Shown here: positions 1 to 60,453 of the stretch, piece after piece
Layout of the letters: every line of letters begins with the position of its first letter
Position numbering within the stretch: the stretch's first letter is position 1
Assembly (NCBI GenBank): GCA_026413225.1
Contig: CM048553.1
Location: 131,128,190-131,192,189 of the forward strand
Reading direction: 5' to 3'
Origin: Otis tarda
Lineage: Eukaryota > Chordata > Aves > Otidiformes > Otididae
DNA: 64,000 bases
Notes under the pieces: model-generated
Database searches by the model: none
The model's input: the letters and a program-made list of their open reading frames with translations, nothing else
What the model was told of the DNA's origin: nothing
Made by a program: the position numbers and the translations under genes

Positions 1-1764
1 GAACTGTACCTCATGTTAGCCCAAAACCTGTAGTGCTTGAGGTAAAAGGAGTGATAAAACGACTATGAAAACTTTCCTATCAGTATACTCGTTATGTGGG
101 AAGGATGCTTTTGTGATGATACAGGGAATCAAAGTAGTTATTCAGAGATTCATTTTTGGTCTAACAATCAATTAATGACCCCAGGTCACAGAACTCTATT
201 TTTTAATACCTCCTTATCTCTAAGCAGCTTAGGATAGCGATGGCCTCTTGGTCCTTTTCTTTCCTTCTTTTTTTTTTTTTTAAAAGATGTCAAGTGTCAA
301 GGAAATTTATATTTGAGATTTGAAAAAGCTCTGCATCTTCTACAAGAACAGGAATACTTTGATTAATTTTGATATGTTTTCATTGACAACAGTATAAAAA
401 TTATTGCTTACAGTAATGTGTCTAAAATGCTGTCAGCCAGCTTGGTAACTGGGCTATTCAATTTACCACCAACGTATCACTCAGAGCTGCTGTTTGCTTC
501 AGAGTCCAGCAGGAGGTGTCAGCAGAAAAACACTTTGTGTTTAACGTAAGATGTGAATTTTGTTTTGGCATTGGAGATTTATGCACTTGCAAAATGTTAT
601 CAACAACATCTGGTGGTATTTCCATCCTGTCCCACTTATGTTTGTCAAATTCTGAAGATTTACAGGTGTTTAATGAAATGACAAATAAATAAATATTTTA
701 GTTTGGCTAACAAGAAATTAAGTATGATTCCAAATTCATTCTATTTAATTGTCTAGTATGAGTGAAATCCAATAAATAAATGAGTAAATATTTTTATTAT
801 GTCAATTATTAAAGCATTTCATCTTCAATTTTCAGGTGATGTAGATGTTTGCAAAATCTTATCTATAGATTCCTTGTGTTCCAACTTAGTATCTTAATTC
901 ACAGTTATCCATCCATCTGTGATTTTAATTGTTAGTTTTGTTTTGGTTTATTCTGGTTTGTGACCTTTTTTTTTTTTTGTTCTTGCTACCTATACTTTTT
1001 TTTTTCTCCTGTTCCCCCCCCCCTCTAAAGTGGAGGTCTGAGACCATCCTCTAGATGCTTTGTAAGAGCTTCTCCTTCTCTGAATGGACAAAGTTCATTT
1101 CTTCCAAGGGCTTCAGTTGAAGAGTTTCCTCTTAACATAAACATCATGTTCAGATTCATAAAGCTGCAAATAACACCCTAAGTACTGATACTCTCATTAC
1201 AAGTAATTCCTGAAAGAAGGTACAAATCTCACTTTTACTATAAATCACTTGTATGTTTTATGGAATTATCTGTGTCATCGACTGTCTTCATAGTACCACA
1301 AATTGATATTTTTAAGGTTCAAATTAGAACATATATGACCAATTGAGAATTTTTACTGGATTTTGCAGTTCTTGTTCTTCCAGACTTACATTTGACACAA
1401 CAGTAGGTAGCCTTATTTTAATATGACATATAAGGTATCAATGGCAGTGGCAGAATCAACTAATTATTTGTGTATTGTCATTTTACCTGATTTCAGATTT
1501 GCTGACTAGAATTTTAAAAGCTTTGTTTTAAGAAGTGGACAAGAGTAGTAGAATATCAGTTTTGATGTGATGGCAAGCCCTGAATGATACTATAAAATTT
1601 TTCAACTAAAATTTTAAGTACCTGTCTCCTCTTTTCTAGCTTTGTGTGTTGCCATCTCACAGGGATCCACATTACTCTTTCTTTGCTGCTGGACTTCTAC
1701 TGGGTTAAAATCCTTCTATTATACTGACCAGTTCTGTAAGTTTATCTAAAAATTTTTATCCAGT
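1..1764. other. AT-rich non-coding DNA, no gene recognised
   Basis: I see no long open frame and no recognisable repeat family here. There are T-homopolymers near 267-281 and 968-980 and a short C-run near 1013-1022. The DNA is typical AT-rich avian intergenic or intronic sequence. An intron of a very long gene cannot be excluded from sequence alone. Confidence 0.6.
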
Positions 1765-1937
1765 TGTCGTGGTTTTGTTAGTGAGGGGGGGCCTAAGGTG
1801 GTAGCTTCTGCAGGAAACTGCTAGAAGTCGCTCCCCTTTGTTTAGTGGACTTGGCCGGGCCTAGGGCGGACCTGCTGCTGGCCAAGGCCGAGCCAATTGG
1901 TAGCAGAATGTTCCGTGATAACGCCTCTGCGATAACG

Positions 1938-1944
1938 TATTTAA
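1938..1944 (+). promoter_or_regulatory. TATA-like box of left-arm LTR
   Basis: TATTTAA sits just upstream of a purine-rich stretch, about 175 bases into the LTR. The same box recurs at the matching place in the other copies (14703-14709; reverse complement at 3591-3597 and 30735-30741). Conservation across copies supports a core promoter role, but activity is inferred. Confidence 0.5.
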
Positions 1945-2713
1945 GAAGGGGAAAACAGAAAAAAAAAGAGAGAAGAGAAGATGTGAAGAAGCTGAGCGGG
2001 GGCGGAGGCGCAGAGGGAGAGGCGCAGGCCTCATGGGCCTTGCAGGCCTCACCCTCTGGCCTCTTGCCAGGCGGCCGACTGGGCCCGACTCGGCCCGGCC
2101 CGGCTGCAAGAAGTGGAGAGGAGATGAGAACTGAATAAGATGTAAAAAGATCCTGAGAGACATCTACCACCCTGTTGTGAGGAACGGCTGCAGACGCCAA
2201 GGTCAGTTCAGAAGGAGGGGGAGGAGTAATGCGGCTCCTGGCCAAGATTCCCCTGCAGCCTGTGGTGACGACCATGGTGGAGCAGGTTGTCCCCCTGCAG
2301 CCCATGGAGGTCCACGGAGGAGCAGAGATCCACTTGGAGCCCGTGAAGGACCCCGTACCGGGGGAGGTGGATGCCTGAAGGCGGCTGTGGCCCGTGGAGG
2401 GCCCGCTGGGACAGCCGTTCTGGAGAGACTGTACTCCGTGGAAGTGATGACCCACGCCGGAGCAGTTCCACGAAGGACTGTGGCCCGTGGGAGGGACCCC
2501 ACGATGGAGCAGGGGAGGAATGTGAGGAGTTCTTCCCCCGACCATGAAGCAGCGGCATGAAACAACGTATGATGAACTGACTGCAACACCCATTCCCTCT
2601 TCCCCCCTGTGCCGCTCGGGGGGAAGGTAGTAGAGATAATGTTAAGCTTGGGAAGAGGGAGGGGTGGATGGAGGTTATCTTGTTCCCTGTCTCATTATCC
2701 TGCTGTTTGTAGT

Positions 2714-2719
2714 AATAAA
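2714..2719 (+). terminator. LTR polyadenylation signal AATAAA
   Basis: An exact AATAAA is followed by TGAATAG and a T-rich tract. It is conserved at 15483-15488 and, inverted, at 29941-29946. It lies in the loop of the palindrome, so the left arm keeps it and the truncated right arm lacks it. Confidence 0.6.
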
Positions 2720-2902
2720 TGAATAGTTTTCCCCAAGTCGAGTCTGTTTTGCCCGTGACGGTAACTTTAAGGATTTCTCCCTGTCCTTATCTCAAACCTC
2801 GAGCCGTTTTTCCTTATATTTTCTCTCCCTGTTCTCTCGGGGGGTGGGGGGAGTGAGAGAGAGACTGCGTAGTCTGGTCCTGATCAGGGCTGAACTACGA
2901 CA

Positions 2903-2907
2903 GTTAT
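2903..2907. other. Five-base junction filler between inverted LTRs
   Basis: GTTAT separates the last base of the left LTR (ACA at 2900-2902) from the first base that pairs with the left arm (2908). It matches neither the LTR continuation nor a primer-binding site. It may be non-templated filler or a trace of template switching. Confidence 0.55.
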
Positions 2908-3770
2908 TTCCCCCCCGAGCGGCACAGGGGGGGAAGAGGGAATGGGTGTTGCAGTCAGTTCATCATACGTTGTTTCATGCCGCTGCTTCATGGTCGGGGG
3001 AAGAACTCCTCACATTCCTCCCCTGCTCCATCGTGGGGTCCCTCCCACGGGCCACAGTCCTTCGTGGAACTGCTCCGGCGTGGGTCATCACTTCCACGGA
3101 GTACAGTCTCTCCAGAACGGCTGTCCCAGCAGGCCCTCCACGGGCCACAGCCGCCTTCAGGCATCCACCTCCCCCGGTACGGGGTCCTTCACGGGCTCCA
3201 AGTGGATCTCTGCTCCTCCGTGGACCTCCATGGGCTGCAGGGGGACAACCTGCTCCACCATGGTCGTCACCACAGGCTGCAGGGGAATCTTGGCCAGGAG
3301 CCGCATTACTCCTCCCCCTCCTTCTGAACTGACCTTGGCGTCTGCAGCCGTTCCTCACAACAGGGTGGTAGATGTCTCTCAGGATCTTTTTACATCTTAT
3401 TCAGTTCTCATCTCCTCTCCACTTCTTGCAGCCGGGCCGGGCCGAGTCGGGCCCAGTCGGCCGCCTGGCAAGAGGCCAGAGGGTGAGGCCTGCAAGGCCC
3501 ATGAGGCCTGCGCCTCCCCCTCTGCGCCTCCGCCCCCGCTCAGCTTCTTCACATCTTCTCTTCTCTCTTTTTTTTTCTGTTTTCCCCTTCTTAAATACGT
3601 TATCGCAGAGGCGTTATCACGGAACATTCTGCTACCAATTGGCTCGGCCTTGGCCAGCAGCAGGTCCGCCCTAGGCCCGGCCGAGTCCACTAAACAAAGG
3701 GGAGCGACTTCTAGCAGTTTCCTGCAGAAGCTACCACCTTAGGCCCCCCCTCACTAACAAAACCACGACA
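2908..3770 (-). mobile_element. Right arm: truncated inverted ERVL-like LTR, - strand
   Basis: This is the reverse complement of the left arm from its first base to about position 2625. It includes the TATA-like box and the GC-rich core but lacks the last ~280 bases (polyadenylation signal and U5-like tail). It ends at AACCACGACA, the inverted LTR 5' terminus. It differs from the left arm by only a few substitutions (for example at the bases equivalent to 1854) plus small length changes in G/C runs near 2910-2933. Confidence 0.85.
3591..3597 (-). promoter_or_regulatory. TATA-like box of right-arm LTR
   Basis: TTAAATA on + is TATTTAA on -, the mirror of 1938-1944. Transcription from it would run leftward through the right arm, the loop and the antisense of the left arm. 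Confidence 0.45.
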
Positions 3771-6700
3771 CCAGTATATGGTAAAAAGTCACTAAATATT
3801 TCTACTACATAGTTTTCAAAAGTATAAAGCATGACATTTTACCCATTTTCATCTGAACTTAGACCAGTAGTCACTTCTGAAACATCACTGTCAGCATTTC
3901 CAGACACTGCATGTCAACTCTGCCTGAAGCAAAGATTGCTTAGAAGACTGGTCAGAACAGGACAATGTTCTGATGTTTTCTGCATTTAATAGGTTAGGTA
4001 GCTGCACAGAGTCAGTAGACTCCTACCTGGTTAAAATGTCTATATTCCCTTTCTTCTACCCCTTAAAGTGATTTTCTCAAGGATTACACAAAATGTTATA
4101 AGATCTAGTACTGTAGATTTGCCATATCTACTACATGACATTTCTCCATGAATTATTTCAGCTTCAAATTTGATTCTTTCAAAATATTGCTTATTAACAT
4201 TGTTGACTTTGATTGAGTAGCTGCAGTCTCTAGCTCAAGGATTCTTTTTACTGACACATTTTTAATTTTGTGAATCAAATTTGTGAATTCTGATATGGCT
4301 GAAGTGCTAGAAGAAGTACTCAAGATAGATAGGCCAAAGACCTTTGAAAATGAGAACTAGATTATGAATTGAAGCTGATATTTAATGGGCCACTTGTATA
4401 ATAAGTAAAGGACAGATGTCTCTTGTCCTGCTTCTTTTAGCTTTGAAGAAACAGAATCAGCCAAACGATTTTCCAGCCAATTAACACTGCCTTATAATTG
4501 ACTGTATCTCTCTATTGCGTACTTCGTGTAGGATGGATAGTTACATACATTTGATCTGATGTGCCACAGTTGTTCCAGTGGCCTTGATGATAATGTCGAC
4601 TTGCACAATGACATTTGTTGATGGTTGATACAACGCTTCAAATGTAAAGCTATATTTGACTACAGTTCTAAATTTTAAGTAATAGCATTTACATTCATAG
4701 ACTGAGAGGAACAGCACATTAATATTTTTTTTATTAACTTCTTTATGATCATTCTTTTTTTCTCTGTTCCCTTGAGTAATGCCTGCTCAGACCTATGTCT
4801 ATTGAGTCTCTTCACCCTGCAGGCAACTGTCACAGGGAAGACAGAAATTTAACAGTTACATGCTAAATGACTGGATATATTCTTTTCAGGAAAAAAAAAA
4901 ATAAAGAATCTCTTCCAGAAGGCAAATTGTGGTGTGAATAATAACAAGATGACATGTTATTCCCCTTCCTCATGATTTTTGGAATTCAGGGAAAAATTTT
5001 AGAAGGGTATAGCCTAGTGGTTTAAATCTTTTAATCTGAAAATTCTTTTATATAATGAATTACTAAATACAAATTTCATGTTAATGTGCACATTGTAGCT
5101 TCTGTATATAGGTTGACTATTTAGAGCCCTAAATATTTCATGATTAAAAAAAAAACCCTGAATGTATAACTGCTATAAAAAATACTGAAGTACTTAAAGG
5201 AGCTGTACTATAAAAGACAAATCTATCTAAAAGCTATTCAAAGGACTAAAAAGTATTCGTTGGTAAAATATGCTAAAAGTTCAGACTTATTGACACAGTC
5301 GATCTTCTAAATTCCTCACTTCATTGCTTAATAAAATGTAGGATGCAAGCTATCTAACATATCTGACATGACTGATTATCTATAGAAAATACTTCTTGGA
5401 ACATTACTACAACGAAGCTTTCAGATACTTTGCTAATTTCTAAATAAGGCATAGCTCTATACATATATTTATTTTTAAAAAATGCAATTCTTAGTCTCCT
5501 GCTGCTGAGAAGCTATGAATGTCAAGTACTACAATTACAACTTATTTTGAATCTTCACAGCGTAACAGAAAACAGTGGGAGACTTGCAGCAGGTAAATAT
5601 TTTGATGTTTTAAAAAAAACGTCGTGGTACTTCATTCTACTCTTATAGCTGACAAATCCTCGGCTAGACTAGTTATGTAGGTAACAGAGTGCTCCTTTAC
5701 TTTTTTGTATGCCATTTAGGGTCTTAATTAGAGAATAATAAAACATTAAAATAACCAAAGACTTTTAAGCATCCTTAGCAAAGGTTTTGATATTTTTGGA
5801 CATCTGAACCACATAAACTCTACTAAGATATAGAACAGAAAAACAGAGCTTTATCAAATTCTTTGCCTTTCAAAGACTGAAAATTATACTGTGAATGAAT
5901 TGTCTTGTATGAAATGCATATGTATTTCAAAATACATGATAAGGTCTCTTTAGTCTCATCCTCATCATTTATAAATACCAAAGAAAATGTTCTATAGCAT
6001 TACTATGGGACAGCCTGTCTCTTTCTGTCTACTTTGAACTTTGAGCCGTATTTAAATAACAAATTTGAACTTGCTTGACATGTAATTCTGGCTTGAACAG
6101 GATATAATATTTTAAACACATTTTCCAAAAGTCTTTGTTACATACAATCACAGCTCAAATATCATGCTTGAAAAGAGTTTTGCAAACTTTGACATTGTCA
6201 TCTGACCAGCCAAACCATGTTTGAAATTGTTATCACTACTGCATTTGTAAGTGAGCTCAAAGCTCAGTGTAGACAACCTGACAGGCAGCTTCTTCGAAGT
6301 ATTGTGTCTTAGTAACCTTAAACATGGCTTTTCCTTTTGAACACTTTAGTAGTCGAGATAAAGTGGAAGCGTTTTGGCATCTCCACAGTCTTTGATCCAG
6401 TCTTTGGGAAAAGTAGTGCTGAAATGCCCCTAGTTCTGAATTATATAAACCATGCTACGATGACAGCTATCTGTCCTTTCCCCCAACCCCCCTTCCACAG
6501 TCACTAAAAGGCCTTCATTTAAACTGCAAATTTCATAAGGAAAAGAAAAAAAAATAGTCTAAGTGTTTTTAAAAGTCCTAAAATGTCATAAAGGCTACCA
6601 CAGAAATAAAATAATAAATAATATTGTCTTAGACTTCCTACCATTGCTGCAGCTCACTCATACTCCTTGTAAACATGCTACATCTGTTTCAGCAAATTCT

Positions 6701-12500: not shown

Positions 12501-14529
12501 CCTTAGCAGATATGCAAGATGCTTTAAAGGGAAAAGGGACAGAACATAAACTTAGATAACTAGAGTCTGATCTGGGAAATATGAGCCAAAGCCAAAGCAG
12601 CTAATTCAATTCCAGTGATTCAGAAAATAAAACCTTACTTGATTTAAATCTTAAGGGCAAAGTTTAGAATTTTAGTCTTCTTTTACAGACCATCTTTATT
12701 CACGATAGACAGCATGCTTTCTTAAGGAGAACACTATCTCTTAAAAAAAAAGTACTAGACCATTATCACATTTTTAATTGCACAGATAAATAAACTCAGT
12801 AAACAATACAGCTGTGCAGTTTGCTATTGAATAACTCAAAACTTGGGATGTAATTAAAATTTAAACTTCTAAAGGGAATTTGAATCTTGTATCTATGAAA
12901 TATATAATTTTATATATTTCATGAGACTTTTTTGATTAGGTTGACATTATACTATTGTTTGAAATGAGCCCCATAAGGTGAAATTGAGATGTTGAGAATG
13001 AGAGAGAATGTATAATTTATAAACTCTACTTAATAAAGTATATGTTAAGTACAGCTCTGTGTGGAAAAGTCCTTTAAGGTTATTTATAGTTTGATATATT
13101 ATATTAGAGTTCTTCTTAATAATAGAGTTATCTTACCATTGTAATTGAGCCTATCAGTCAAGATTACATAGGACATTTTACATGTCTGAAGGAAGGTGGC
13201 AAGGCAGAGCTATGAATCTGCAGCAAGTACCGAAGTTAGGAAGACAATCAATACTATTGAACCACAGTATATTCTTAACTTAAATTTTCCAAATCATTTG
13301 AGTCTGGAGTTATGTTTTATGATTTTCCAGAATTACCAGTCAGATCTCAGTGACCAGCTACCTCTGTTAACTGGGGTTTTTAATATGGATTTCAAACCCA
13401 AGATATTGAGTCAGCCATGAGAAAATGACAGAAAGAACCTGGTCTTTGGGGGCAACTACATGTAGAGAACTGAGATCTGAATAACAATCTCTCTGCATAA
13501 ATAATCTCTATGTTATTCAAAGTGAGCCAAAGAATGACATCACATGACCTGTTGAACTGTAGCAGAAATGTTTTCAGCCAGGCCCTGAGATAGCTTCTCT
13601 TAGCTTCCAGCAAGTGTAGGTTACTGTAGATACTAAGCTTCAGAATCTATTTATTTATCAAAGGTTTGGATCCCTATATAGAAGTACCAAGCTCCTCCTG
13701 AAAGCTTCTCAACTTCTGCTGAAATAATTTCAGAGTTAGGAAGATGAGGGACAAAGAACTCAAAATTCATATTTTCAAAAGTATATAGTTGATTCACTCT
13801 TATTTAATCCCTAGAAATCAGACTTTAATGTCTACATATGTTTATCTAAGTAATCATCCCAAATTTATCTGCAAAGTTTCTGGCAGATCAAATTTCATGT
13901 TGGCATTTAAGACTTGTTTGTACTCAGCCATGATTAAATATTTACTCACAAGTAAAATCAATAAAATATTTGGGTCAGAAAAAAATTAAGGAGGGGTGGA
14001 GTAGAGAGAACAGGGATAGATAAACTTGTAGTGGAAGAAGGAGATAAAGAGGACATATATGTTTCTTGCTTCACTGTTATGGAGCTATATAATCAGCTTT
14101 TAAAGTATAGTAATGAAAAGAATGAGATTTTGGAGAACATAGGAGAAGAAGAGTTGAAGTTTCCAGGAAATCCACTACAGGTTCTCCTCTTCTGGTTCTT
14201 TTACTTTGAAGTGAAGATCAAGTAATGTCATTTCAGAAGGTGGTACAGTGCTGTAAGAACAGCAAGAAATCTGAAGACTCAATATTTTTGATTGATTGTG
14301 TAAGAAAAGAGGGCTTTTTTGATGTTTTGGGAAACTGAGGTTGTTTGGTGTGGGTTTTTCATGGTTTACTTATTAAATTAAGGATTTTTAAACAGGAATA
14401 ACTACAGGGAATGTTGGATGTAGTCTTCATTGGTTTCAATTTATATGAAACTTTTATTAGTCAGAATTATTATTCTTCTGCATTGCTTTCAGCTAGTTAA
14501 GTATATATAATATTCATACAATAGAATGT
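9593..14529. other. AT-rich non-coding DNA, no gene recognised
   Basis: There is no recognised gene. The longest open frame (11081-11515, - strand) resembles no family I know and has no supporting context. A short tandem repeat lies at 11935-11969. The last 5 bases (AATGT) are the left target duplication of the next LTR. Confidence 0.6.
11935..11969. repeat. Short tandem repeat, three ~12-bp units
   Basis: Three consecutive units begin TCTGTAAAA (12, 11 and 12 bases). Confidence 0.7.
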
Positions 14530-14702
14530 TGTCGTGGTTTTGTTAGTGAGGGGGGGCCTAAGGTGGTAGCTTCTGCAGGAAACTGCTAGAAGTCGCTCCC
14601 CTTTCTTCAGTGGACTCGGCCAGGCCTAGGGCGGACCTGCTGCTGGCCAAGGTCGAGCGGATTGGTAGCAGAATGTCCCGTGATAACGCCTCTGCGATAA
14701 CG

Positions 14703-14709
14703 TATTTAA
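14703..14709 (+). promoter_or_regulatory. TATA-like box of solo LTR
   Basis: TATTTAA lies in the same context (ATAACG upstream, GAAGGGG downstream) as in the palindromic copy. Confidence 0.5.
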
Positions 14710-15482
14710 GAAGGGGAAAACAGAAAAAAAAAGAAGAGAAGATGTGAAGAAGCTGAGCGGGGGCGGAGGTGCAGAGGGGGAGGCGCAGGCCTCCTGGGCC
14801 TTGCAGGCCTCACCCTCTGGCCTCTTGCCAGGCGGCCGACTGGGCCCGACTCGGCCCGGCCCGGCTGCAAGAAGTGGAGAGGAGATGAGAAGAAGTGAAT
14901 AAGATGTAAAAAGATCCTGAGAGACATCTACCACCCTGTTGTGAGGAACGGCTGCAGACGCCAAGGTCAGTTCAGAAGGAGGGGAGGAGTAATGCGGCTC
15001 CTGGCCAAGATTCCCCTGCAGCCTGTGGTGACGACCATGGTGGAGCGGGTTGTCCCCCTGCAGCCCATGGAGGTCCACGGAGGAGCAGAGATCCACTTGG
15101 AGCCCGTGAAGGACCCCGTACCGGGGGAGGTGGATGCCTGAAGGCGGCTGTGGCCCGTGGAGGGCCCGCTGGGACAGCCGTTCTGGAGAGACTGTACTCC
15201 ATGGAAGAGATGACCCACGCCGGAGCAGTTTCGTGAAGGACTGTGGCCCGTGGGAGGGACCCCACGATGGAGCAGGGGAGGAATGTGAGGAGTTCTTCCC
15301 CCGACCATGAAGCAGCGGCATGAAACAACGTATGATGAACTGACTGCAACCCCCATTCCCTCTTCCCCCCTGTGCCGCTCGGGGGGGGGGGGAAGGTAGT
15401 AGAGAAAATGTTAAGCTTGGGAAGAGGGAGGGGTGGATGGAGGTTATCTTGTTCTCTGTCTCATTATCCTGCTGTTTGTAGT

Positions 15483-15488
15483 AATAAA
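15483..15488 (+). terminator. LTR polyadenylation signal AATAAA
   Basis: An exact hexamer about 190 bases before the LTR end, conserved with 2714-2719. Confidence 0.6.
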
Positions 15489-15671
15489 TGAATAGTTTTC
15501 CCCAAGTCGAGTCTGTTTTGCCCGTGACGGTAACTTTAAGGATTTCTCCCTGTCCTTATCTCAAACCTCAAGCCGTTTTTCCTTATATTTTCTCTCCCTG
15601 TTCTCTCGGAGGGTGGGGGGAGTGAGAGAGAGACTGCGTAGTCTGGTCCTGATCAGGGCTGAACTACGACA

Positions 15672-18600
15672 AATGTCAAACCAGAATTCTCTTTCTGGTG
15701 TCATTTCAGTAAGGTCAGCCACATGAATAACGCGGAGGATCATAGAAAAAGGGTCTTATAGGATCTACAATTAACAGAAATAACTAGGGTGGTTTTTTTT
15801 GTTACATATATTTCTATAGCAAAAGAGTGATATCTGTAAGCTTTGGAAATCATATAGGTAGCTTCAAAAAGGGACAGTAAAAACCAGAATCATAACTGAA
15901 GCTATGAATCGTTTTTATTCCTGCACTACCATTCTTATCTCTAAATTTGCCATTGCTTATGCCACTGATGGCATAAGACATCCTTTCCTTTTTTTTTATT
16001 GATCCTCAAACAAAAATCTTCCATAGGAAAATAAACAATATTACAGCTTTGCAATGTATTGGGACATCCAGCTTTACCAAGAGGAAGACAGTTTAACATC
16101 TGTTCCTTTCAAAGTCATAGGGAGCAGGTGCATAGCAGAAAATCTCAGCATTAGAAAAAACTGAATTCTGATAGGTTAGGATTTATGATGCTATCAGTAG
16201 TGACTCCTTCTCCACAAGATAGTTTCCTCTTCATGTATGATTCAGTCCCTTTACTGCCTCTATTATCCTGTTTATATTTTGTTTCATCACTCCACACAAA
16301 CAACAAATTGCTTGCTGATTTGAGAATAGTGAGCTATCTAATTTCTTCCATGTTGTCTTCATGAAAGAAGTATGATTCTTGGCTTGATCCAAAAAAAACC
16401 AACAATCCTTACCTTCAGTACCTCTTCAGAATCCTGCCTTTTTATGTTATCAGATTTGTTACTAAATGTGTATGAGGTATTTGGGGTTAGTGTGTATTTA
16501 CAATTTATCCAAGGTTACTAATCATACACTGCCTTCAGTACTCTCCTTCATATTTGATTTCAGGTTTTTTTTTTCCTTTGACTAGACCTCAGTACTGCTA
16601 CTGGAATTAAATTAATGGTAGATGTTTATGCAGAAGACTTCAGAATCTATGTAAGATACTACATCCTTCTGGACTAGCACTTAGAAAACCAAAATTCGTT
16701 AAAAAAATATTTTGTATAACTTCTCTTTAGGATTATTTTCCTTAAGGGCTAGATTGTTCTTTCCCCTCAAAAGTTAACAAACAGGCTATTTGAAATAAAA
16801 CATTATATTCTGCTACACAGGACCTGAGCATCTGTCATTTGCTGCAGAACATCCCTTCTTTTTTTTTTAATTATTTTTTTGTCAACAAACTATAGATGGA
16901 GAAAGGCTGCATGAAGGGTTTATAGTGACCAATATGCTTGTGGAGACCAGAGATACTGTTTTGTGGCCTAGAATGGAGAAAAAATACATTTTGCTAAAAC
17001 CTGAAATTCTTTAAACAAATATATTTTTCATTGTTATTGTACCAGGAATATACATATGCTCCTGCATCACCTCTTTTCTCACAAATATAAGTTTTTTTTT
17101 TGTTTTTACAATCTTACAGTCTTTACTTCTTCTAATGTTGGGTTGCCTAGATTCACCTGCATCATCTTATTAATGTTTTTAATATGCTACACATGGCTAG
17201 AGAGATACATATATATCCAATCATTTAGCTATGTTTCTGTCTACATCTTACCCTCACCTCAAAAAATTCAGATATCAAGCTCCAGACCAGTACCTGCAAT
17301 TGAAGTTTTGGCAATATTATACTGTTATCTAGAGAATATAGAATAGTAGTAGTTGAATACAACATTCAGAAAATTTTAGTTTCACAATGCATCCGATAAC
17401 CATTCCTAGTATTTTAAAATAAATTCAGTAGGTAAAAATATTCAATAAATATCAGAAGTGAATAAAAAAATCTATGTGCTATATACAGTATCTACTATTG
17501 CTATTAGTTTCTCAAATCACTAAAGGAATCTATATTGAATCTTGCTGTTTTGATTGATGCTTTCTTTCCCACTAATAAGGTCCTGTTTTACTAGTCCTGG
17601 TTCTCCTATCTGACACTATTTTCTATTCTGGTAAATTATATTTTGTTTACTTAACCTCTACCTTAGTTTTAATTGAATGAGACGTCAAACTGCATGTAAT
17701 ACTCCAGTGAGCAGTTAAAGCATTACCATTCTTCCATGCAAGTACTGAAATAATTTCTGTAATGAATAAAATACTTCTTGTTGAAGAGGTCTAATGCTAG
17801 GGAAATGCTTGCAGGTTCTTGTGAAGAGTTTCATATAAGATGTTATCTGATAAACAAGTAGTAAAAATAATTTCAAATGTGTGAGAAAACAAATTTGCAT
17901 TATTAGTGTTACTTTTTAATTATATTTTTACTCCAGGTTATGGGATCACTCATTCTTTTGCTCTTAGCAATTTACTGACTTCCCTTAACAACACTGCTTC
18001 TATTAATACTGAATGTATGATTTAAATGAACTATTTGGAAAGTGAGATATGACTTCTCAGGTCTTATTTAAATCTTTTTGAAATTTAAAAGCTATGGATA
18101 AGACCCACATGAAAAAGACTTGCAGAAGTGAGTGTCAAATTTTTCATTTTTCTTCTTGAGGCTGGCAAAAATTTATTTCATTAGAAAGAGGGTTTTTTTT
18201 TTTAGATTTTCAGAAGAATGCATTCTAATCCTTATAGCAGTTTTTAATTTTAGGCAGAGAGTTTAAATTGTATATTACTATAAATAACTGTCTAAAGGTA
18301 GAATGAAAAAAATAGGAATTATTTTTTGCTTAATTCTGTAGAAATGTATTGTTTTTTCAATGTGTCTCTATTTAGATAAATCTTTTGAAATAGAGCAGAA
18401 GGTTCATTTGCTGTATTTCATGTGTATGTTATGACATCAGTTTTTCATAGTTCCATGCAATCTCCATTAAAATGAATGGGCAGTTGATTCCTGCCAGAAA
18501 ATTCAGACATGTTGGACAAACTTAGCTGAAGATATTAATCATCTGGCAGTGAAGTGGTTAGTTGTATTTGTATTTAGTGTAGGTGTAATTAAGCTCCAAA

Positions 18601-29759: not shown

Positions 29760-30902
29760 TGTCATAGTTTAGCCCCACTTGAAACCAAGCTACGTAGTTT
29801 TTCACTCACTCTCCCCACCTTCTGAGAGAATGAAGGAGAGATAATACAAGAAAAAGCTTGAGGTTTGAGATAAGGACAGGGAGAGATCACTGAAGTTACT
29901 GTTATGGGCAAAACAGACTCTACTTGGGGAAAACTATTTGTTTATTATTATTAATAAAATCAAAGCAGGATAATGAGGAAGATAACAAAACAAATTCCTC
30001 CCACCCCTCTCTCTTCCCAGGCTTAACTTAATTTCAAATTATCTCTACCTCCTTGCCCCACTCCCCAAGAGGCACAGCGGGGAAGAGGGAATGGGTGTTA
30101 TGGTCAATTCTTCACTTGTCAATTTACACTGCTCCTTCCTCCTTGGGGGAAGAACTCCTCACATTCCTCCCCTACTCCATTGTGGGGTTCCTCCCACGGG
30201 CCACAGTCCTTTGTGAACTGCTCCAGTGTGGGATCCTTTTCCACGGGGTGCAGTCCCTCAGGAACCAACTGCCCCATCATGGGCCCTCCACCAGCCACAG
30301 CCTCCAAGCATCCACCTGCCCTGGCATGGGGTCCTCCATGGGCTGCAGGTGGATCTCTGCTCCTCCATGGGCTGCAGGGGGACAGCCTGCTTCACCATGG
30401 GCTGCACCATGGGCCGCAGGGGAATCTTGGCCAGGAGCAACATTACTCCTCCCCCTCCTTCTTCCCTGACCTTGGCATTTGAAAACGTTCCTCTCACAAG
30501 AAATTCTTCACAATCGGCTCAGGCAGACGCCTCTCAGGTTCTCTTCACATCTCATCTCCTCTCCACTTCTTGCAGCTGGGCTGGGCCAAATCAGGCCCAG
30601 ATGGCCTCCCAGCAGGAGGCCAGAGGGTGAGGGCCACAAGGCCCACAAGGGTCGCAGCTCCCCCTCCCTGCCTGCACTTCTCCTCCTTCACATCTTCCTC
30701 TTTTTTTTTTTTTATTTTTTTTATTTTCTTCTTCTTAAATATGTTATCACAGAGGTGTTATGACTGTCTCCAATGAGCTTGGCCCTGGCCAGCAATGGAT
30801 CTGCCCTAGACCCAGCTAAGTCCACCAGACAAAGGGGAAACTTCTAGAAACTTCTCACAGAAGTTGCCAGCGTAGCCCCCACTGCTATACAAAATCAGCA
30901 CA
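29760..30902 (-). mobile_element. Older solo LTR of the same ERVL-like family, - strand
   Basis: Read on -, it aligns along its length with 14530-15671 but is clearly more diverged. On + it starts TGTCATAGTTT (inverted LTR 3' end) and ends AAAATCAGCACA (inverted 5' end). A perfect 5-bp duplication, CAATG, flanks it at 29755-29759 and 30903-30907. The inverted AATAAA is at 29941-29946 and the inverted TATA-like box at 30735-30741. A T-rich tract at 30701-30723 replaces the A-rich run of the younger copies. Many former CpGs read TG or CA, as expected from long-term methylation decay. Internal sequence is absent. Confidence 0.92.
30735..30741 (-). promoter_or_regulatory. TATA-like box of older LTR
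   Basis: TTAAATA on + is TATTTAA on -, at the position equivalent to the other copies. It remains intact despite the copy's divergence. Confidence 0.4.
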
Positions 30903-44410: not shown

Positions 44411-46159
44411 AATCTGGCCAGGGATATAAAAAGTAACAAGAAAAGCTTTTACAGGTATGTAGGGGACAAAAGAAAATCCAAGGAGAATGTAGGCCCCCTC
44501 CGGAAGGTAACGGGTGTCGTGGTTACCCGGGATGTGGAGAAGGCTGAGGTACTCAACGACTTTTTTGCCTCAGTCTTCACTGATAAGGGCTCTTGTCTCC
44601 CCACCCAAGCTGTGGAAGGCACAGGCAGGGACTGCGAGGATGAAGAACCGCCCACGGTGCTCGAAGAGCAGGTTTGGGATCATCTAAGGAACTTGAAGGT
44701 GCACAAGTCCATGGGACCTGATGAGATCCATCCACGCGTCCTGAGGGAACTGGCGGATGAAGTTGCCAAGCCACTGGCCATCATATTTGAGAAATCGTGG
44801 CGGTCTGGTGAGGTCCCCAATGACTGGAAGAGAGGGAACATAACCCCCATTTTTAAAAAGGGGAGTAAGGAAGACCCGGGCAACTACAGGCCGGTCAGCC
44901 TCACCTCCGTGCCTGGCAAGGTCATGGAGCAGATTCTCCTGGAAACCATGCTAAGGCACATGGAGAGCAAGGAGGTGGTTGGTGACAGCCAACATGGCTT
45001 CACCAAGGACAGATCGTGCCTGACCAATTTGGTGGTCTTTTATGACGGGGTAACAGCATCGGTGGACAAGGGACGGGCAACAGATATCATCTACCTGGAC
45101 TTGTGCAAGGCATTTGACACTGTCCCGCACGACATCCTTCTCTCTAAACTAGAGAGGCATGGGTTCGATGGATGGACCACTTGGTGGATAAGGAGTTGGC
45201 TGGATGGCCGCACTCAGAGAGTGGTGGTCAACGGCTCAATGTCCAAGTGGAGACCGGTCACCAGTGGCGTCCCTCAGGGGTTCGTGTTGGGCCCGGCCCT
45301 GTTCAACATCTTTGTCGGCGACATGGACAGTGGGATAGAGTGCACCCTCAGCAAGTTCGCCGATGACACCAAGCTGTGTGGTGCCGTCGACTCGCTGGAA
45401 GGGAGGGATGCCATCCAGAGGGACCTTGACAGGCTGGAGAGGTGGGCCCGTGCCAACCTCATGAAGTTCAACCAGGCCAAGTGCAAGGTCCTGCACCTGG
45501 GTCATGGCAATCCCAGGCACAAATACAGGCTGGGCGGAGAATGGATTGAGAGCAGCCCTGAGGAGAAAGACTTGGGAGTGCTGGTAGACGAGAGGCTCAA
45601 CATGAGTGGGCAATGCGCCCTTGCGGCCCAGAAGGCCAACCGCATTCTGGGCTGCATCAAGAGGAGCGTGGCCAGCAGGTCGAGGGAGGTGATTCTGCCC
45701 CTCTACTCTGCCCTGGTGAGACCCCACCTGGAGTACTGCGTCCAATTCTGGAGTCCCCAACATAAGAAGGACATGGACCAGTTGGAGAGGGTCCAGAGGA
45801 GGGCCACAAAGATGATCAGAGGGCTGGAGCACCTCTCCTATGAGGACAGGCTGAGAAAGTTGGGGCTGTTCAGCCTGGAGAAGAGGAGGCTCCGGGGAGA
45901 CCTGATAGTAGTCTTCCAATACCTCAAGGGGGCCTACAGGAAAGATGGGGAGAGGCTGTTCAGTAGGGCCTGTTGTGATAGGACTAGGGGTAATGGGTTT
46001 AAATTAGAAGGAGGTAGGTTTAGATTAGATATTAGAAAAAAATTTTTTACAATGAGAGTTGTAGAGCACTGGAACAGGTTGCCCAGAGAGGTGGTGGATT
46101 CCCCATCCCTGGAAATGTTCAAGGCCAGGTTGGATGAGGCTCTGAGCAACCTGATCTAG
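44411..46159 (+). pseudogene. CR1 reverse transcriptase, 5'-truncated, reading frame open
   Basis: The C-terminal part of CR1 pol, open from 44411 to the TAG at 46157-46159 (over 580 codons). Because the 5' part is missing there is no genuine start codon. Numbering from the GTG at 44519, the fingers region includes [10 protein letters not shown] (121-130). Motif A is [11 protein letters not shown] (192-202, catalytic D194). Motif B is VPQGFVLGP (251-259, with F where S is usual). Motif C is FADD (280-283, D282 and D283). All three metal-binding aspartates are present. The C-terminal CR1 region (RVQRRATKM, then [11 protein letters not shown]) is complete. No promoter or endonuclease is present, so it cannot mobilise itself. 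It is a dead copy with an undamaged enzyme core, which implies recent insertion. Confidence 0.9.
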
Positions 46160-60175: not shown

Positions 60176-60453
60176 CAAAGAAAAGAAAAGAAAAAGAAAA
60201 AGAAAAGAAAAAGGAAAGGAAAGGAAAGGAAAGGAAAGGAAAGGAAAGGAAAGGAAAGGAAAGGAAAGGAAAGGAAAGGAAAGGAAAGGAAAGGAAAGGA
60301 AAGGAAAGGAAAAGGAAAAGGAAAAGGAAAAGGAAAAGGAAAAGGAAAAGGAAAAGGAAAAAGGAAAAGGAAAAGGAAAAGGAAAAGGAAAAGGAAAAGG
60401 AAAAGGAAAAGGAAAAGGAAAAGGAAAAGGAAAAGGAAAAGGAAAAGAAAAAC
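60176..60453. repeat. Polypurine microsatellite, (AAAGG)n then (AAAAGG)n
   Basis: About 275 bases of pure A/G on +. An irregular AAAAG/AAAAAG lead-in (60176-60210) passes into about 20 perfect pentamers (to about 60308), then about 22 hexamers (to about 60446). A single extra A near 60358-60362 makes one 7-mer. A 170-codon Lys/Glu/Gly/Arg open frame across it (60012-60524) is a by-product of the repeat. Confidence 0.95.

Follow-up and report, generated by a model that had tools for sequence, protein, structure and literature searches.

The two described mechanisms nearest to the structure reported here that we found both concern human immunodeficiency virus type 1 (HIV-1): the self-priming of minus-strand strong-stop DNA, which depends on the trans-activation response element TAR (Guo et al. 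1997, cited in PMC4668388), and the homology-independent jump of strong-stop cDNA to random positions (PMC10986323). Self-priming is reported to involve minus-strand DNA ending in the R region, which mis-primes when strand transfer is hindered and gives rise to heterogeneous by-product DNAs (PMC4668388). The random transfers, in the accessible part of that report, are first transfers in vitro that lead to internal deletions, with one breakpoint fixed at the end of the strong-stop cDNA and the other variable; neither a palindrome nor integration is described there (PMC10986323). In this study we analysed a 64 kb stretch of the Otis tarda genome (assembly GCA_026413225.1, contig CM048553.1, positions 131,128,190 to 131,192,189 of the forward strand), hereafter the window, which contains a palindromic long terminal repeat (LTR) element at positions 1760-3775. 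This element resembles the self-priming system in that strong-stop DNA would have mis-primed when strand transfer was hindered, and the random transfers in its combination of one breakpoint at the end of strong-stop DNA with another that varies among related loci. In contrast to HIV-1 self-priming, the DNA involved would be plus-strand DNA ending at the spacer that precedes the primer binding site (PBS), U3 lies outermost, and the product has been integrated in a genome. We consider it probable that the window palindrome arose as a by-product when a tRNA-Lys-primed endogenous retrovirus was reverse-transcribed, and that it was integrated as one unit with two U3 ends. No report of integrated whole-LTR U3-U3 palindromes was found in the open-licence PMC literature (titles and abstract starts, among the matches listed), which is not proof of absence.

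The element consists of a complete LTR, the seven nucleotides GTTATTT and an inverted partial LTR, all enclosed by one pair of CCAGT target-site duplications (1760-1764 and 3771-3775). The complete LTR (U3-R-U5, plus strand, 1765-2902, 1138 bp) begins with TGTCGTGG at 1765 and ends with CTACGACA at 2895-2902, and this TG...CA-ended unit aligns over its full length with other genome copies. Within it, the AATAAA at 2714-2719 (plus strand), read from the sequence as a probable polyadenylation signal, probably sets the R/U5 border just downstream. GTTATTT follows at 2903-2909 (plus strand), and the inverted arm, on the minus strand at 2910-3770, runs from LTR position 859 to position 1, is 99.5% identical to the left arm (locus L029) and ends in the U3 terminus CCACGACA at 3763-3770. 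By sequence comparison, the junction TT/CC (2908-2911, plus strand) has 2 nt of microhomology (TT) with the acceptor strand. A repeat finder returned the inverted pair 1757-2607 / 2928-3778 (851 nt, 99% complementary), and a chance origin of the palindrome is not plausible. Coordinates, terminal sequences and the inverted-repeat pair thus confirm the preliminary description, which had proposed a complete LTR and a truncated inverted copy placed tail-to-tail, one CCAGT duplication around both arms and a U3-type terminus at both outer ends. The second breakpoint (LTR 859, window 2623) falls within the 3' arm of a predicted 9-bp stem-loop in R (CTTCCCCCC / GGGGGGAAG, 2599-2626, plus strand), whose stem is present in the centroid fold. 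The fold of the 3' part of the strong-stop strand is otherwise unremarkable (z -0.73, not significant), with the last spacer bases predicted to be unpaired.

Several familiar structures were compared with this anatomy. A solo LTR shares the 5-bp duplication around an LTR and the lack of a coding interior, but it comprises a single LTR with a U3 end and a U5 end and lacks the spacer; origin as an LTR-LTR recombination product is ruled out by the two outer U3 ends and the retained 7-nt spacer. A self-primed minus-strand strong-stop product, folded back at R, would carry spacer and U5 outermost and is likewise ruled out, U3 being outermost and the spacer central. A foldback or miniature inverted-repeat (MITE) DNA transposon is excluded because the arms are LTRs and the second breakpoints differ among the seven palindromes described below, though the complex element L030 has that of the window. 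The "palindromic LTR" junction of 2-LTR circles is a short U5/U3 junction in a circle and shares only the wording with the whole-LTR palindrome in the chromosome. The 5' inversion of long interspersed nuclear elements (LINEs), which arises by twin priming, is also an inversion made during reverse transcription inside one duplication, but it involves another enzyme, no LTR, no integrase and no fixed tRNA-primer boundary.

The seven central bases place one breakpoint precisely. Proviral copies of the family read CTACGACA-GTTATTT-TGGCGCCCAACGTGGGGC, and one subfamily has one extra T (GTTATTTT); TGGCGCCCAACGTGGGGC is a motif that we take to be a tRNA-Lys-type PBS. Judged against these copies, GTTATTT at 2903-2909 is the spacer between 5' LTR and PBS, and not filler, an identity that the preliminary description had missed. 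The PBS is present in the proviral copies, and the left part of the window element ends just before its position, the last base of the spacer being complementary to the base with which minus-strand DNA starts. Given this identity of the spacer, the left arm with its spacer is, by sequence, equivalent to plus-strand strong-stop DNA (U3-R-U5-spacer) without the usual tRNA copy, stopped at the start of the minus strand beside the tRNA primer. A further locus, L092 (G000:C1:19721980-19722160), carries LTR, spacer and PBS and, beyond the customary 18 nt, continues with a copy of the tRNA primer body; the copy matches the Rfam tRNA model with 48.6 bits, its anticodon read by eye is CTT (Lys), and after it come the inverted spacer and five bases of the U5 end. 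Its sequence supports tRNA-Lys as the primer of the family. The first base past the PBS is C, where the tRNA would presumably give T. The Lys PBS and the 5-bp duplication by themselves hint at Class II (ERVK, betaretrovirus-like), of which we assume both traits to be typical.

The two arms of the window element differ by 3 substitutions over 859 aligned bases plus one inserted C (4/860 substitutions in the comparison of all palindromes, one of them at the join). By contrast, the arms are separated by 10-20 substitutions from 28 other LTR copies (27 loci from the best genome matches and the second LTR copy in the window), and by 10 from the nearest of these; such ordinary copies served as comparison for the window arms only, the other palindromes being compared among themselves. 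Both arms have a haplotype in common, which includes C at LTR 367, where 27 of the 28 copies have G. Two of the arm differences are private, at LTR 254 to the left arm and at LTR 640 to the right, all 28 copies carrying the other state; the third, at LTR 88, varies in other copies (16 C, 12 T) and is C in all five copies that match the states at LTR 93, 124, 130, 131 and 148. This shared haplotype together with the private differences is most simply explained if both arms descend from one template. At a neutral rate near 2e-9 per site per year, the divergence of 3/859 would correspond to roughly a million years, provided that the arms have not converted each other.

The LTR family is very numerous, with 3686 first-look candidates in the genome (1.198 Gb, 116 contigs). 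Of the best 40 matches to the window LTR, self excluded, one is the inverted arm of the element itself and the others are 39 copies with 97-99% identity; identical 5-bp flanks, the ordinary habit of the family, were seen in 28 of 39 ordinary copies. One further copy lies in the window at 14530-15671 and is a plain solo LTR with the duplication AATGT (14525-15676). A short non-autonomous form also exists, in which two LTRs on the same strand, about 1.45 kb apart start to start, flank about 310 nt of PBS, leader and polypurine tract (L032, L047, L050, L052, L056, L072 and L085). At 30332-30406 the window holds imperfect 29-bp repeats that by eye resemble part of the LTR (TCCTCCATGGGCTGCAGGGGGAC), probably an older LTR.

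The preliminary description had called for a search for other loci with the same palindrome inside their own duplications, and such loci were found. In a junction search of the genome 40 of 1374 candidates were scored, and two pattern searches gave 16 hits (CTACGACAGTTATTTV) and 84 hits (CTACGACAGTTATTTTH); since all census queries contained the spacer, the exactness of the spacer breakpoint is partly a matter of ascertainment. Seven U3-U3 palindromes were identified: the window element (L077), L073, L075, L082 (= L035), L083 (= L034), L084 and L087. Each holds one complete LTR with spacer, joined tail-to-tail to a second strand that starts at U3 (for L087, both ends of the complete LTR and the junction were read, the middle not), and all seven have one breakpoint at the spacer/PBS border, another that varies and U3 outermost on either side. 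Besides six of these palindromes, the hits of CTACGACAGTTATTTV, 16 in number, comprised L080, L076 and L074, two ordinary elements with a shorter T run (L072 and L085), and five complete, near-complete or truncated LTRs followed by sequence that could not be placed (L071, L078, L079, L081 and L086). Among the latter, L081 (around G000:C4:60107536) has an LTR and spacer, then CTGTCATA, with GCATT on both outer sides and a right end that is not CA. For CTACGACAGTTATTTTH, 79 of the 84 hits end in T, like the subfamily with the 8-nt spacer (of these, L019 and part of one in L092 were read); the other five were the seventh palindrome (L087), an element with a mutated PBS (L088), and L089-L091, which run into sequence unrecognised by eye. 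A control pattern at the PBS end, GGCGCCCAACGTGGGGCV, gave 85 hits; no U3-U3 palindrome was visible among the 11 with C or G next, read as 181-base stretches and including L092 and L094, and the other 74, one of which lies in L076, have A next and were taken for a subfamily variant.

The second breakpoint lies in the LTR at position 859 in the window, about 660 in L035/L082, 737 in L073 and about 957 in L087, and in the leader near the polypurine tract in L034/L083, L084 and L075, with 10-14 nt of LTR-matching sequence at the join in L034 and L075. The inverted segment of L034 and L084 comprises the whole LTR and its own spacer (AAATAAC), so that its two borders coincide with the two ends of strong-stop DNA. 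Perfect 5-bp duplications enclose five of the seven: CCAGT (window), CAGAT (L073), CCTAT (L034), CTTAA (L084) and CAGTG (L087). That of L035 is damaged (right CCACA, left CCAC, 2 bp lost). Substitutions between the arms numbered 2/669 in L035, 5/739 in L073, 4/1140 in L084, 0/1142 in L034 and 32/1117 in L075 (comparison of six palindromes, L087 not included, with 1-8 gaps each); thus five of the six have 0-5 substitutions within the element, as against 14-34 between left arms of different palindromes. On the basis of the latter figure, the seven were taken as independent events. The single duplication, the near-identical arms and the palindromes with their own duplications elsewhere support the earlier proposal that DNA with two U3 ends was integrated as a single unit.

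From the observed anatomy, spacer identity, duplications and recurrence we infer the strand identity, tRNA removal, jump and second-strand synthesis in the following scheme. Plus-strand synthesis would start at the polypurine tract at the beginning of U3, copy U3-R-U5 and the 7-nt spacer, and halt where minus-strand DNA begins. The tRNA primer, normally copied for 18 nt, would be left uncopied, perhaps through its earlier removal, and since no copy of the PBS would exist, second strand transfer could not proceed in the normal way. Another plus strand starting at U3 would then receive the free 3' end in a jump guided by 0-2 nt of homology, or the end would fold back on itself, and the acceptor plus strand would be copied back to its U3 5' end. 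The completed duplex would have a U3 integrase site at each end and a U5 site at neither, and integrase would accept it like any normal substrate and insert it whole, generating a 5-bp duplication as usual. Precedent for the last step comes from the integrase of Rous sarcoma virus, for which concerted in vitro integration with U3-ended donors has been reported, using purified enzyme and gain-of-function U3 donor ends; this result, obtained with single-U3-end donors, suggests by analogy that two paired U3 ends may be usable by integrase (PMC3579926).

Four points weigh against this scheme. Firstly, palindromes broken elsewhere than at the spacer escape the census, all queries being spacer-containing. 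Secondly, a snap-back hairpin alone has one end, and a second strand or second molecule is required. Thirdly, L075 (around G000:C1:168124749) has no 5-bp duplication (left TTTTC, right GTTTA), although the last eight bases of its left flank, ATGTTTTC, reappear 9 nt inside the right flank. Its arms also differ by 32/1117, which exceeds the 27 substitutions between its right arm and L034. Such unlike arms would suit an intermolecular jump, and in view of the missing duplication L075 may have another history; aberrant integrations in which a defective viral end was apparently inserted by host enzymes have been described and are a possible model by analogy (PMC5041404). Finally, a guidance of the jump by non-templated C residues that reverse transcriptase would add was considered and not retained: CC stood at the first four junctions out of four (window, L035, L034 and L030) but at only two of the six later ones (CC in L075 and L076; GG in L073, AT in L084, CA in L080, CA in L087), against a CC background rate of 0.145 at sites of the inverse LTR whose first base is other than T, which leaves a weak hint only.

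Other aberrant elements of the family bear on the order of events. The ends of L076 are an ordinary U3...U5 pair within a single duplication (CCCTC), and inside the element the spacer breakpoint is joined to inverted leader-PBS-spacer-U5; with a spacer-anchored inverted join inside ordinary ends and a single duplication, template switching most simply preceded integration there. L074 (around G000:C1:163133885) consists of LTR, spacer and an 11-nt repeat of the U5 end with GATGT on both sides, possibly an insertion of LTR-only cDNA that annotation would call a solo LTR; judging by this locus, LTR-sized cDNA seems to get inserted. L080 (around G000:C4:59553549) begins on the left with a U5 terminus, in the form of a U5 hairpin, and closes on the right with 56 nt of inverted U3 terminus; its duplication is CTTCC. 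In L094 (G000:C1:163719220-163719400), placed by eye, the join lies no more than 2 nt beyond the 18-nt PBS copy and leads to LTR position ~654 in the same orientation. L030 (G000:C1:71048532-71048631, minus strand) is a diverged complex element in which LTR 859 is joined to inverted spacer and U5 as in the window, with 90% identity to the window over the 101-base junction query; a common hotspot or common descent may lie behind this. With L030 in mind, there is a slight chance that some lineages of the family inherit the inverted junction and are recopied as palindromic or hairpin RNAs.

Among the other explanations, the one that survives best is that two separate U3-ended cDNAs, the left a strong-stop duplex ending at the minus-strand 5' end and the right a broken LTR, were joined to the target strands by one integrase complex, after which host end joining fused their inner ends. 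It predicts the same anatomy and duplication, it can draw on the concerted integration of single-U3-end donors by purified Rous sarcoma virus integrase (PMC3579926), and end joining would fit both the 0-2 nt of junction microhomology and the short stretches of LTR filler found in L034 and in L075. However, the near-identical arms require the same source for both molecules, and the inverted join of L076, in an element with ordinary ends and a single duplication, is easier to form before integration; we therefore regard this explanation as rather unlikely. Of the earlier suggestion of self-priming or template switching, the origin in reverse transcription is supported, because one breakpoint is the start of minus-strand DNA, and the event can be placed more closely, at the 3' terminus of the plus-strand strong-stop DNA; from there, an intramolecular fold-back, a jump to a second plus strand or end joining between a pair of U3-ended molecules may have followed.

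A secondary rearrangement, either by flipping of a proviral LTR between its terminal repeats (TGTCGT/ACGACA) with deletion of the interior or by template switching at a fork that copied the LTR inversely, is very unlikely. At insertion a provirus has two identical LTRs, and as 6 bp are common to the LTR ends in inverse orientation, a flip could stop exactly at the duplication. But the inverted LTR of L034 and L084 has its own spacer AAATAAC, which a 3' LTR lacks, and hence a flip of the 3' LTR cannot create it; moreover, breakpoints at spacer/PBS and U3 start are the borders of reverse-transcription intermediates, unlike those of random repair. An assembly artefact such as a fold-back read, which does produce palindromes, is still harder to credit, as the symmetry ends exactly at the element ends with different flanks beyond, there are differences private to one arm or the other, and separate duplications enclose several of the loci. 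Two independent LTR insertions, nested or adjacent in opposite orientation, might be entertained in view of the 3686 candidate copies, but with one CCAGT pair around both arms and no own duplication seen at the inner junction, arms 3/859 apart against 10-20 substitutions to any of 28 other copies, and a spacer common to seven such cases, the chance of this is practically negligible.

Two other features of the window were recorded. An open frame of 582 codons at 44411-46159 (plus strand) matches Pfam RVT_1 (E 3.2e-35) and presumably belongs to a LINE, and an array of about 49 copies of the hexamer GAAAAG occupies 60180-60452.

To our knowledge, failures of retroviral strand transfer have been seen mostly in test tubes and in infections of short duration. 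This genome appears to keep a series of datable, base-exact fossils of one such failure, in which a second plus strand would have been joined to plus-strand strong-stop DNA without the tRNA copy. Should the class be borne out, the integrase in germ cells would accept a pair of U3 ends, reverse-transcription intermediates would be readable from genomes rich in young LTR elements, and some solo-looking LTRs, such as L074, may originate as LTR-only cDNA and not by recombination. Inverted LTR pairs of this kind could also yield double-stranded transcripts.

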